Source: a virus. Taken from it: a stretch of DNA of 43,850 nucleotides. Of this stretch, positions 1 through 43,850 are shown piece by piece. The position numbers and the translations under genes are program-made. The stretch spans positions 1 to 43,850 of IMG/VR virus record IMGVR_UViG_3300046504_000013. One strand, given 5' to 3'. How positions within the stretch are numbered: the stretch's first letter is position 1; each line of letters starts with the position of its first letter. The notes below the pieces were generated by a model, which made no database searches, was not told the origin of the DNA, and worked only from the letters and a program-made list of their open reading frames with translations.

Positions 1-30
1 ATCTAATGCTAGAATTAACTCTAGCAGAAC
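1..30. repeat. Terminal direct repeat, left copy
   Basis: The first 30 bases are identical to bases 43821-43850. The polymerase frame is continuous across the join, so the contig closes on itself. A 30-base identity is more likely an assembly overlap of a circular or circularly permuted molecule than a biological terminal repeat, but sequence alone cannot decide. Confidence 0.95.
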
Positions 31-2213
31 TCGTAGAGATAAAACCCCGCATTCTTTTTATATGTGGTGAACTTCCCCTAGCTGCACTATGCGAGAGACG
101 TAAGATACGTTCTTACAGAGGATCAGTCCTTGAATTAGCAGAATGGATTCAAATTAAATACCCGATTCTAAAAAACACACTTTGTATTCCACTAGTCCCT
201 CTAAGAGATCAATTCTATGACAACCACCTATGTACTTTCACCCAGCTTGATCTTGCAAAGGGACTTAAATATTCGCAGGAGTCTTTTGTTCACCCAGATA
301 AAAGATACATTCTAACTGTTGCTAATGATGCCGGAGATTTTTATGCCTTTCTCCAAAGATGCCCGAATCCTAAATTCCGCACAATTGATATCGAAACAAA
401 CCATTGTTTCATTACTTGCATAGGATTCTGTCTTGACGGTAAAGAGGCAATTAGTGTTCCGTGGATTCACTTAAGAGAGAGTGAAGCTGCTTATGTAATT
501 TCTGCTGTATCAAAGTACATAGCAAAACCTGTCCCAACAGTAAATCAAAATATTCTATATGACGACACAATACTCTCACAATGGGGAATGCCAATCCCGA
601 ATATCATTGGCGACACAATGTTACTTGCGCATACTTTGTATCCTGAGTTTCCTAAAGGCTTGGATTTTCTTACTTCTATCTATACTGATCTTGAGTATTA
701 TAAAGATGATGTTAAAAATGTTGGGGATGCTTACAACCCAGAAAAATATAAAGAACGTCTATATCTATACAACGCCAAAGATGCATTATCAACTCATATC
801 ACGTATTCTCAACAACTTGAGGATGCTAAAGAATTGGGCGTACTCAATTTCTATCAAACTAGAGTAATGACATCCTATTCAGTTTACAAAAGACTTACCA
901 ATACTGGAATCTTAGTTGACGAATCAGCTCGAAAGAGACTAATTTATAAGTATAATGGAAAACTTGTAGAAGCACTAGATCATTTAAAAGGTTCAATTCA
1001 AGCCGACGAAAATATCAACTGGGCTACCTTCGTCAACTCTTCTCAACAAGTCGCCTATCTTGTATATGATTATCTTGACTGTCCTGAAATAACACACTGG
1101 ACTGTAAATTCTAAAACTGGAGAGCGTAAACAAGTTCTTTCTGTTGATGAAGAAGCGTTAGAAGAGTTAATCATAAATCGGATTCAAAACGAAGCAATTA
1201 AAAAAGTTCTATATGATATAATCTTGTGTCGTAAATACTACAAAATCATCAACTGGCTTTCTACTCCTTATGCTACAAATGGCCATATGTATACTTGGTA
1301 CAATCAAGTAGGTACTGAAAGTGGTCGTACATCTGCTAGTGAACGCCCGGATATGTATAGGGTACTTAAAGATGAGAACAATAAATATTACAAAGAACCG
1401 ATTGGGTATAGTTTCCAAACTATCCCTAAACACGGATATGAACTCCCCGATGGAACAAAAATCGGAGATGATTTGCTGGAAATTTTTATCCCTCATGATG
1501 GAAATATCTTCATCGAGGGAGATAAGTCCCAAGCTGAAGCGAGGGTTGTTACAGTCCTTTCAGAGAATTATAACTTACTTCCTTACTTCGATAAGCCTCC
1601 TGGTATTCATCGTTTGACTGCAAGCTGGCTTACAGGAGGAGATCCTTTTAATATAAAGAAGAGATCTTTTGAATATGATAAAGGTAAACGTGCTAGACAT
1701 GCTGGAAACTATGCTATGGGTCCGGGAAGGCTGAGTCAAATGACCCACCTTCCTTATAAAGACTGTGAACTTATTATGTTCAAATTCCACAGAGCCGATC
1801 CTTCTATCATGGGAGTATTTCATCACGAAATTAAGAAAAAACTCTCTGAAGATAGAGTTCTAATTTCCCCACATGATCGCCGTAGAGAATTCTTTGGAAG
1901 ATTAGATGAGAATACTTTCAAAGAAGCGTATTCTTATATTCCGCAAGCTGTAGTAAGTGATGATATTAAATTTTCTCTAAGAACTCTCATGGAACGTGCG
2001 GATTGGGCGCGCTTCTTAATTGAGAAACATGATAGTATCCTTGTTGAAGTTGAGAAGGGAAGAAAAGACGAATACGTTGAGATTTGGAACAAGACTATGC
2101 ATGAATCAATTGACTTTAGAAGGTGTTCATTGTCTCGGGATTTTCAGTTAATGATTCCTACGGAATTGCAGTGGAGTGAGACAAATCTTAGCGAATTGAG
2201 GGATCTCAAATGA
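1..2213 (+). CDS. Family A DNA polymerase with 3'-5' exonuclease domain (main part; 5' end lies at 43553-43850)
   Basis: This is the replicative DNA polymerase. The frame is open at base 1. Joined to 43553-43850 it gives about 826 residues starting MELINGRG; the ATG at 6 is internal. Numbered from the full protein, there is an N-terminal region of about 200 residues resembling family 4 uracil-DNA glycosylase but lacking its active-site motifs. Next comes a DnaQ-like exonuclease with DIE at about 219-221 and YNAKDA further on. The polymerase domain carries motif A (GDKSQAEAR, Asp at about 597), a motif B-like stretch (KRARHAGNYAMG, about 650) and motif C (KHDS, about 764-767). The stop overlaps the next gene by 4 bases. 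It is the last large enzyme but one of the rightward replication arm. I am sure of the polymerase call and less sure of the glycosylase-like label. Confidence 0.95.
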   Translation, partial: LMLELTLAELVEIKPRILFICGELPLAALCERRKIRSYRGSVLELAEWIQIKYPILKNTLCIPLVPLRDQFYDNHLCTFTQLDLAKGLKYSQESFVHPDKRYILTVANDAGDFYAFLQRCPNPKFRTIDIETNHCFITCIGFCLDGKEAISVPWIHLRESEAAYVISAVSKYIAKPVPTVNQNILYDDTILSQWGMPIPNIIGDTMLLAHTLYPEFPKGLDFLTSIYTDLEYYKDDVKNVGDAYNPEKYKERLYLYNAKDALSTHITYSQQLEDAKELGVLNFYQTRVMTSYSVYKRLTNTGILVDESARKRLIYKYNGKLVEALDHLKGSIQADENINWATFVNSSQQVAYLVYDYLDCPEITHWTVNSKTGERKQVLSVDEEALEELIINRIQNEAIKKVLYDIILCRKYYKIINWLSTPYATNGHMYTWYNQVGTESGRTSASERPDMYRVLKDENNKYYKEPIGYSFQTIPKHGYELPDGTKIGDDLLEIFIPHDGNIFIEGDKSQAEARVVTVLSENYNLLPYFDKPPGIHRLTASWLTGGDPFNIKKRSFEYDKGKRARHAGNYAMGPGRLSQMTHLPYKDCELIMFKFHRADPSIMGVFHHEIKKKLSEDRVLISPHDRRREFFGRLDENTFKEAYSYIPQAVVSDDIKFSLRTLMERADWARFLIEKHDSILVEVEKGRKDEYVEIWNKTMHESIDFRRCSLSRDFQLMIPTELQWSETNLSELRDLK

Positions 2214-2687: not shown

Positions 2688-2799
2688 AACAGTAACTCCA
2701 GTAGCACACATTCACAATGGCAAGATTTACTATTGCGAAGTCTTTCATTCTATCTTAAAAGTTCGTAAATGGTTAGGAGCGAATAGACCACTCAAATGA
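2569..2799 (+). CDS. Hypothetical protein, 76 residues
   Basis: The C-terminal 50 residues look like a real small domain (VCPWDHKI, then TPVAHIHNGKIYYCEVF), with two Cys and two His that could bind a metal. The start is uncertain: the ATG at 2569 has a GAGG about 12 bases upstream, and the N-terminal 25 residues overlap the preceding gene. The stop overlaps the start of the DUF3987-like ATPase as ATGA, which supports the frame. Function unknown. Confidence 0.55.
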   Translation: MNMPKTRSPQKLIELNITKLNRKLLLVCPWDHKIDRVSLETVTPVAHIHNGKIYYCEVFHSILKVRKWLGANRPLK

Positions 2800-4013
2800 A
2801 CTTCCTAACCAAACTCCTAGAACATATGGAAGATGCAGAATCTCCAAATAGTTACATTATGTGGGCTGGTCTAGCTACACTTGCCGCGATTCTTAGAGAC
2901 AATGTTTATTTTAAGTACCGTCACGATAAAATCTATCCTAATATCTACGTAATTATAGTCGCGGGGAGTTCAGCCACACGTAAAGATGCTCCTGTAAGAT
3001 TTGCTGAAAAATTAATAAGAGAAATAGGAACAACCAAACTTGTCAGTGGTAGAACATCTATACAATCATTAATGAAAGTTCTTGGCGAAAATTATACTAA
3101 TGAAAAAGGTCATAGACTTAAAGGTGCTAGTGGCATTTTATGTTCTAAAGAACTCAGCGACTTGATTGTAGATGATCCAGTCGCAATGAAAGTGATAACA
3201 GACTGGTATGACTGCCATGACATTTGGGATAACAATTTGGTTTCAGGTGGAGTATCAAAGTTGGAAAATTTATGCATTACTATATTGGCTGCTAGTAATG
3301 ACATTCTTTTCCAAGACGTGTTTAAGAATTCTGAAATCTATGGAGGATTACTTGCACGTTCCTTCATTGTTACAGAAACTCGAAGAAAAAAGAAGAATTC
3401 AAGAATGTTCGATAGTTTGGATACGAAAGACTTGTATCCCTTACTTATTAAACATCTCGAATCTCTCACTAAACTTAAAGGACCTGTAATCTTTACTTCA
3501 TCTGCACGAACATACTATGACCAATGGTATAATAGTATAGATGATGAAAGATTTGATCGTGCTGGTGTAATTGCTAGAATACACACAGGAGTTTTAAAAG
3601 TAGCAATTCTACTTGCAGCAGCACGTGAAAATTTTGAAATGACAGTTCAAGAAAAGGATATAGAATCTTCGATAGACTTATGTTTAGGTCTTATCAAGAA
3701 CTATAAACAAATTACTATGGTAAGTGGAAAATCTGAACTTGCAAATCCGATGAATTTAATCCTTGGCGAACTTATTAAAGACAAGGATCATTGTGTGCAA
3801 CGTAAGATATTGATTCAGAGACTTTTAGGAAGTCTTGATCCTTTAATTCTGGATCGTTGTACAGAGGCATTACTAGAAGCCGGATATATTCTCTTAACAG
3901 TCAAAGGTGGCAACCCGGCGTATAAACTGACCGAGAAATTCTTACTCGATTATGAAAAAGAAGCTGCGCCGAAGATGAAGAGTGTTACTCCCAACCAATC
4001 TGTTTTAGATTAA
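2796..4013 (+). CDS. DUF3987-like ATPase, candidate replicative helicase/primase-associated protein
   Basis: The protein has 405 residues. The pattern YPNIYVIIVAGSSATRKD at 47-64 resembles the P-loop region of phage DUF3987-type proteins (PNLYVxLVGxSGxxRKS). Here Lys63 is kept, but the usual Ser/Thr after it is Asp64. A Walker B-like strand (GILCSKELSDL, about 112-122) and a sensor-like strand (CITILAASND) follow. The C-terminal part (about 320-395) looks like a winged helix. It is coupled to the upstream gene by ATGA and ends the rightward arm. It is the best candidate for the helicase loader or helicase function, since no DnaB-type helicase is present. Its 3' end overlaps the 3' end of the leftward operon by 29 bases. 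Confidence 0.6.
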   Translation: MNFLTKLLEHMEDAESPNSYIMWAGLATLAAILRDNVYFKYRHDKIYPNIYVIIVAGSSATRKDAPVRFAEKLIREIGTTKLVSGRTSIQSLMKVLGENYTNEKGHRLKGASGILCSKELSDLIVDDPVAMKVITDWYDCHDIWDNNLVSGGVSKLENLCITILAASNDILFQDVFKNSEIYGGLLARSFIVTETRRKKKNSRMFDSLDTKDLYPLLIKHLESLTKLKGPVIFTSSARTYYDQWYNSIDDERFDRAGVIARIHTGVLKVAILLAAARENFEMTVQEKDIESSIDLCLGLIKNYKQITMVSGKSELANPMNLILGELIKDKDHCVQRKILIQRLLGSLDPLILDRCTEALLEAGYILLTVKGGNPAYKLTEKFLLDYEKEAAPKMKSVTPNQSVLD

Positions 4014-42867: not shown

Positions 42868-43216
42868 ATATATGAGAGAAGTATGCTTTGCAAGAAAGAA
42901 TGCATACTTACAAATACATGGACCTTGTATTAAATGTGGAAGTTGGGAAAACCTTGAGTTTCATCATAGAGACCCTAAGACAAAGATTAGAACTATTTGC
43001 TGGTCTTGGAAAACAGCGATACTTTTAGCAGAAATTGCTAAATGTGATATACTTTGTCGTATGTGTCATATTGCTACTAAACCCTTTGTGCATGGGACAT
43101 ATTCTTGTTATGTTAATGCTTATTGTAGATGTAAACTTTGTACTAATGCAGCAAGATTACATTCTAAATCTCAACGAATGAGGATTAAAGATGATCCTAC
43201 AAATCGGCAAGTATAA
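42839..43216 (+). CDS. HNH endonuclease, 125 residues
   Basis: Zinc-binding Cys30-x2-Cys33 and Cys73-x2-Cys76 flank the HNH core (LEFHHRDP, His42/His43). A CDILCRMCH motif completes the usual HNH layout. A second Cys cluster (CYVNAYCRCKLC) lies in the C-terminal part. It may be a free-standing homing-type nuclease or a host-DNA cutting enzyme. It overlaps both neighbours by 26-29 bases. Confidence 0.8.
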   Translation: MPQTREQKNKYMREVCFARKNAYLQIHGPCIKCGSWENLEFHHRDPKTKIRTICWSWKTAILLAEIAKCDILCRMCHIATKPFVHGTYSCYVNAYCRCKLCTNAARLHSKSQRMRIKDDPTNRQV

Positions 43217-43553
43217 AGGTCAAGAACTTGAAGAAATTCCTCTTGAATATCTTATCTGGTTCGAGAGTAACACGAATCCGGCTCCACCTTTACGTGAGGC
43301 ACTTAATGCTGAGATTAAGATACGGATTGCGGATAAATCGTCGATAGGGCGTGATCCAAGTGGTCCATCTTACACGAGTTTTGAAGAGATGCTTCACAAG
43401 GAATTAGTCAAATGGCTTGTAGAAGAACATACAGCTAAGAGACTGATTTTACTTCTTAATGCGCGAGCACATTTAGAACGCTCTCTTGCAACCATGCTCA
43501 AAACCGAAGTCCCTAGACTTAAAAAACTCTATCGTTCACAAAGCAAACCTTAA
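43191..43553 (+). CDS. DUF3820-like protein, 120 residues
   Basis: IGKYKGQELEEIPLEYLIWF near the start is the DUF3820 signature (GKYKG...IP..YL.W), a small domain found near DNA-processing genes and often fused to exonucleases. The second half is helical. Its stop overlaps the polymerase start (TAATG), so coupling is likely. Function of the domain is not settled. Confidence 0.7.
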   Translation: MILQIGKYKGQELEEIPLEYLIWFESNTNPAPPLREALNAEIKIRIADKSSIGRDPSGPSYTSFEEMLHKELVKWLVEEHTAKRLILLLNARAHLERSLATMLKTEVPRLKKLYRSQSKP

Positions 43554-43850
43554 TGGAACTCATCAATGGACGCGGACCTGATGGTGGAATTTTCTTTCTA
43601 GAAGATTATCCAAGTGAAGAGGAGTTTCACCAATGTAGACCATTGATAGGTGGAAATCTAAACTTATTAAAGAGACTACTTTACTCTTTTCAGGTAAATC
43701 CTGAGACTTTCTATCGTTCTGTCTTTTTTAAGGAAAGGCTTGAACCTTTACAAGTAGCTATAAGGCGTAATCGAATCAAATGGAATTCTAAAGCATTTCT
43801 TGAACATAAAGATTATTTTAATCTAATGCTAGAATTAACTCTAGCAGAAC
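43553..43850 (+). CDS. Family A DNA polymerase, 5' part (continues at base 1)
   Basis: The ATG at 43553 overlaps the DUF3820-like stop. The frame runs without stop to 43850 and continues across the closed ends to 2213. The first 91 codons before the Met at base 6 carry GPDGGIFFLEDYPSEEE and RPLIGGNLNLLKRLL. These align by eye with the GP...I..VGEAPG...EE and RPFVG(...)LL start of family 4 uracil-DNA glycosylases, but without the catalytic Glu-Ala-Pro-Gly motif. Confidence 0.9.
   Translation, partial: MELINGRGPDGGIFFLEDYPSEEEFHQCRPLIGGNLNLLKRLLYSFQVNPETFYRSVFFKERLEPLQVAIRRNRIKWNSKAFLEHKDYFNLMLELTLAE
43821..43850. repeat. Terminal direct repeat, right copy
   Basis: Identical to bases 1-30. 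Confidence 0.95.

Follow-up and report, generated by a model that had tools for sequence, protein, structure and literature searches.

UDG-PolI fusions, in which a uracil-DNA glycosylase (UDG) is joined to a DNA polymerase, have been described for PaBG-group phages, and the UDG domain of PaBG was modelled on 1ui0 (PMC7412058). PDB names for family 4 UDGs such as 'Phage SPO1 DNA polymerase-related protein' reflect the same link, and the UDG-polymerase fusion itself is therefore not new. Phage fusions of this kind have so far been understood to link uracil repair with accurate copying. In the family 4 enzyme Tth UDGa, the uracil pocket consists of E41, G42, E47, F54, N80 and H155, and motif 3 is represented by N89; k2/Km is lowered about 900-fold in the E41Q mutant, more than 40-fold in N80A and more than three orders of magnitude in H155S (PMC5387724). 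UdgX retains E52 and the His of the HPS motif and adds a cross-linking His109 (PMC10359453), and the processive polymerase complex of vaccinia virus contains the UDG D4 as an essential component (PMC4450493). In the literature searched, which was mostly non-subscription, we found no description of inactive UDG domains in phage polymerases or of a clade that keeps such a domain after its inactivation, and no paper on the phiLo polymerase. What is new here is a clade of eight polymerases in which two or three of three key pocket residues have been lost and the domain retained. One of them is encoded by the window, the whole 43,850-bp stretch of DNA analysed, which is the record of a phage-type virus.

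Architecture of the polymerase and its gene neighbourhood

The two ends of the window carry the same direct repeat (Table 1), and joining across it gave a polymerase ORF of 826 aa in one frame (43553..43850 + 31..2213), whose start site is backed by a sister gene opening MPELIYGRGPD. The initial annotation had placed the UDG-like domain at 43553-43850, which covers its first half and misses the second, at 31-287. In the joined protein, an N-terminal domain of about 185 aa is followed by a 3'-5' exonuclease and a family A polymerase. Pfam matched DNA_pol_A alone, at residues 410-793, and PHROG 17 (DNA polymerase) aligned with residues 12 to 811, the first sign that the N-terminal region is part of a known polymerase architecture. 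The motif A Asp, the O-helix Lys, the motif C His-Asp and the exonuclease acidic residues are all present. The combination that defines a UDG-PolA fusion, namely a UDG-derived N-terminal domain, an exonuclease and a family A polymerase on a single polypeptide, was found in the window.

Table 1 Coordinates of the polymerase gene, its domains and motifs, and neighbouring features in the window
Feature	Position	Strand	Evidence or remark
30-bp terminal direct repeat	1..30 = 43821-43850	.	exact; circular or terminally redundant record
UDG-like domain, first half (polymerase residues 1-99)	43553..43850	+	ORF, join; half alone 49.5 bits against window-free clade profile
UDG-like domain, second half (residues about 100-185)	31..287	+	half alone 45.0 bits against clade profile
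3'-5' exonuclease domain	375..902	+	motifs D219/E221, D277, Y346/D350 retained
Family A polymerase domain	960..2213	+	D597, K652, Y660, H766-D767 retained; Pfam DNA_pol_A E 1.4e-22
Former motif 1, D18-Y19-P20-S21 for E41-(G/A)42-P43-G44	43604..43615	+	alignment
V57 at uracil-contacting N80 position	43721..43723	+	Asn in all 65 intact relatives
R129-G130-S131, UDG-domain motif retained	117..125	+	alignment
P156-L157 at catalytic H155-P156, HPS motif lost	198..203	+	His in all 65 intact relatives
DUF3987 primase/helicase-like	2796..4013	+	kept downstream of polymerase in relatives
QSregVF_b (DUF3820-type) protein	43191..43553	+	directly upstream; stop overlaps polymerase start

The surrounding replication genes encode a SNF2-type helicase, a PD-(D/E)XK exonuclease, Sak4-like and HNH proteins, QSregVF_b and the DUF3987 primase/helicase. 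Much of this gene order recurs in relatives, most consistently the DUF3987 primase, and a QSregVF_b homologue also lies upstream of the polymerase in L174, the closest sequence found to the window polymerase, with 77% identity over the polymerase region and part of the sequence masked. This sequence (L174:7450-8349, contig MEZD01000021.1) is the closest relative of both the polymerase and the tail gene of the window. Its contig was binned as Bathyarchaeota and carries a bacterial DnaA (Bac_DnaA_C, E 1.4e-30); it is probably mis-binned, chimeric or an integrated phage, and the archaeal host label is doubtful. Loss of the UDG because the phage DNA uses uracil was also considered and found no support, as no PF00692 dUTPase was detected in 13 records and the replication ORFs scanned included no obvious gene of uracil metabolism, which is weak evidence either way.

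Homology and predicted fold of the N-terminal domain

PF03167, the UDG superfamily model, did not match the window N-terminal domain at E<=10, a PDB phmmer search with this domain gave only an insignificant match (1ui0, E 1.3), and scans of viral_contigs with nothing but fragments of the window as queries yielded no relatives. Because PF03167 is blind to the window, homology was argued through relatives. The first large relative scan used a pattern resembling motif 1 and was hence biased to intact domains; our conclusion rests on the second scan, with the polymerase domain only as the query. It uncovered closer relatives, L095-L102, which share 35-39% identity over the whole protein and are all degenerate in motif 1. 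PF03167 matched the N-terminal domains of 17 of 17 relatives tested (best E 3.4e-30). It also matched each of eight degenerate-clade records, with four scores above the curated cut-off and four below it; the polymerases of two of these eight, L101 and L102, are near-identical. The profile search called for by the initial annotation was thus positive for the relatives and negative for the window itself, and hhalign of the single window domain against the 17 relatives, at 97.7% probability, favours a UDG. Family 4 motifs are recognisable in the N-terminal domains of several named phages, including those of Desulfofustis and Microcystis and the Methanomicrobiales-associated vir526, among others.

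Against a profile of seven close relatives from which the window was excluded, the window domain scored 102 bits (E 4e-29), compared with a maximum of 9.3 bits among 20,000 shuffles, and its two halves also matched independently of each other (Table 1). When searched against the PDB, this seven-sequence clade profile returned family 4 UDGs in 28 of 30 hits (best E 2e-12), and a profile of the 17 relatives' N-terminal domains returned family 4 UDGs together with the solved phage polymerase 9qhs. The order of motifs had been claimed to be that of family 4 UDGs; each of the motifs cited was found and lines up, in the same order, with its counterpart in the relatives, LEDYPSEEE with GEAPGxEE, RPLIG with RPFVG, PRILFICGELPLAAL with PNxIxALGNxAL, IRSYRGS with IxxxRGS, and IPLVPLR with IPTxHPA, the last placing PLVPLR at the HPS motif as was originally read. 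Similarity to UDG motifs by chance, without homology, had been offered as the alternative and would explain why the Pfam model misses the window alone, but it is refuted by the profile score and the shuffle test, as well as by hhalign, the fold of L097 (see below) and the PDB matches of the clade profile, so that its probability is negligible. At the level of sequence, homology of the window domain to UDG is secure.

The structure was modelled on L097, the nearest full-length relative, the window's own domain being split by the record ends, and the alignment for the L097 N-terminal domain was restricted to the seven degenerate-clade sequences of the profile to avoid circularity. The AF2 model of this domain (pLDDT 85.8, pTM 0.81) had only UDGs as top matches in Foldseek, the best being 1ui1 and 1ui0 (E 3e-12 to 5e-12). 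For family 4 UDGs and UdgX, VIA-align gave Z values of about 20 (20.1 for 1ui0/1ui1), compared with 14.0 for the N-terminal domain of the phiLo polymerase (9qhs) and 12-13 for TDG/MUG. A full-length L097 model (62 mixed sequences; pLDDT 92.4, pTM 0.91) is consistent with an N-terminal domain packed on the exonuclease/polymerase core; the full-length VIA comparison was taken up by Klenow-type polymerases and is uninformative about the placement of the UDG. Since the window groups with L097 in one clade and matches the profile of that clade, the UDG fold is attributed to the window as well. Prediction on this relative therefore bears out the expected family 4 fold with a degenerate active site. 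The ordered motifs and the 102-bit profile score confirm the observation of a degenerate UDG-like domain at the N-terminus of the polymerase, and the predicted fold of L097 and the pocket loss support its reading as a UDG with a degenerate active site.

Pocket loss, phylogeny and selection

At the positions of the Tth UDGa pocket, the window has D18 (for E41), Y19 (G42), E24 (E47), L31 (F54), V57 (N80) and P156 (H155), and N73 aligns at the motif 3 column of N89, within a gappy loop. LEDYP does stand in place of GEAPG, as first noticed, motif 1 being EDYPS in the window rather than GE(A/G)PG. At E41/N80/H155, the window reads D/V/P versus E/N/H in the 65 intact relatives, which are by definition the rows having all three residues (65/84). 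Listed in the order window, L097, L096, L101, L098, L095, L099 and L100, the clade states are DDDDDGGG at E41, YYYYYYYY at G42, EEEEDDDD at E47, LFLLLLLL at F54, VHISLLVA at N80 and PSHASGSG at H155. Two or three of E41, N80 and H155 are lost in all eight members, and L096 is the sole member retaining the catalytic His. At the G42 position, where Tyr is invariant in the clade, 89% of the intact relatives have Ala.

Regarding the 4Fe-4S cysteines, motif 1 of the window is not preceded by a CxxC, and the KCRPP position lacks a Cys. Cys is outside the six commonest residues of this column in the relatives, and those with an intact UDG pocket mostly have no Cys there, ctLwi270 in L007 being an exception. 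Features of UdgX were likewise absent from the window, which has EDYPS instead of GEQPG and neither a KRRIH-type loop nor the R-loop His109.

In a tree built on exonuclease and polymerase columns only, with the UDG columns left out, the eight pocket-degenerate polymerases, window included, formed a clade with 99% SH-aLRT support that adjoins a clade of mostly intact enzymes. Losses of two to three pocket residues required about five changes over the tree, which suggests that the loss arose about five times and can be tested comparatively. Other UDG-PolA relatives also depart from the intact state. The N-terminal domains of L038, L050, L054 and L059 keep motif 1 and N80 and have Asn for the motif 2 His (NPAY), a second independent route to a possibly altered glycosylase. 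Independent partial losses occurred in L003 (Desulfofustis phage) and L147, with D/Y/N and D/Y/H at E41/N80/H155. In L008-L011 (Tiera, Emalyn, Muddy and EBPR podovirus 3), the polymerase N-termini are shortened and retain only pieces similar to the second half of the UDG (LGNEALF...WRG), which points to stepwise reduction of the domain.

Comparison of the UDG-domain codons of the window and L174 yielded pN 0.23 and pS 0.75, with differences of 0.33/0.17/0.53 at the three codon positions, pointing to clear purifying selection on the domain, with synonymous sites near saturation. The former motif 1 stretch, LEDYPSEEEF, is unchanged between the two, and PLRDQFYD is near-identical or identical. 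In the degenerate clade, mean identity is 0.30 for the UDG-like domain versus 0.41 for the polymerase; the corresponding values in the intact sister clade are 0.57 and 0.54. The domain therefore diverges faster than the polymerase in the degenerate clade, and its constraint is looser than in active versions.

Role of the retained domain and comparison with known systems

We consider it probable that the domain is a pseudo-glycosylase that the replicase has retained as a module with a structural role or for binding DNA or a partner. A family 4-type UDG would have been fused long ago to a family A polymerase, the catalytic pocket would have been lost in the common ancestor of the phage clade including the window, and selection would have retained the fold. 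Judging from its residues, the N-terminal domain is very likely a non-catalytic pseudo-enzyme, and we infer that its approximately 185 residues excise no uracil. It may instead be a fixed module of the replicase that holds template DNA or binds a replication partner, in the manner of vaccinia D4, whose role is in part independent of catalysis. A DNA- or partner-tethering role specifically is tentative, with slightly less than an even chance of being right; the net charge of the domain is not unusual and lends DNA binding no direct support.

Several other readings were weighed against this one. The domain might be a decaying vestige that has lost its job, with no activity or partner of its own, and that persists since its removal would destabilise the exonuclease/polymerase. 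The faster divergence of the domain in the clade and the more reduced N-termini of Gordonia, Mycobacterium, Polaromonas and EBPR phage polymerases fit such decay, but purifying selection between the window and L174, the retention of the full-length domain in eight long-branched lineages and the clade-invariant Tyr19 in place of Ala make it unlikely. To a similarly low degree, we allow that the remodelled pocket, with its invariant Tyr at the G42 position and a conserved Y-R/K-S/T...K segment, acquired a new ligand, for example a modified base, the single-stranded end of a template or a peptide of a partner, which would make it a glycosylase-derived reader domain in the replicase.

Less likely still is an altered glycosylase whose pocket was remodelled for another base. 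The Asp and Tyr at motif 1 (D18/Y19) are somewhat like those of family 1 GQDPYH, E24 at the E47 position is Glu or Asp in 8/8 members, and families 2 and 6 are active without the motif 2 His (PMC5387724), but within the clade the motif 1 residue varies between D and G and the His position among P, S, H, A and G, unlike a conserved catalytic site. We regard it as very improbable that the domain is a uracil sensor, which would bind uracil in the template, leave it uncut and stall the polymerase. It sits in the replicase, and archaeal family B polymerases possess a pocket for template uracil, but the uracil-contacting N80, H155 and F54 are replaced, and the role in detecting uracil raised by the initial annotation has accordingly become less likely.

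If the pseudo-glycosylase reading holds, purifying selection after active-site loss means that the domain is useful without catalysis, and the degenerate clade would be a natural experiment in which repair can be told apart from structural or tethering roles, in parallel to vaccinia D4 in an unrelated replicase. D4, functionally the nearest parallel, likewise places a UDG fold in a viral replicase, with a role that is partly catalysis-independent (PMC1936997, PMC4450493). Different from the window domain, D4 is a family 1 UDG, a separate polypeptide joined via A20 to a different polymerase, and still catalytic. UdgX shares the family 4-like fold and a diverged motif A, whereas none of its E52, HPS His and His109 is present in the window. 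Tth UDGa (1ui0) has the same fold, as judged from the L097 model, and the same order of sequence blocks, but in the window its E41, N80, F54 and H155 are replaced, a bulky Tyr occupies the G42 position and the domain is fused to a polymerase. The closest match in architecture is with the polymerases of SPO1-like phages, PaBG and phiLo (9qhs) and with PHROG 17, all of which combine an N-terminal UDG, an exonuclease and a family A polymerase as in the window. Compared with the UDG-PolA relatives seen, most of which retain the E/N/H pocket, the clade of the window has kept this architecture and lost the pocket residues.
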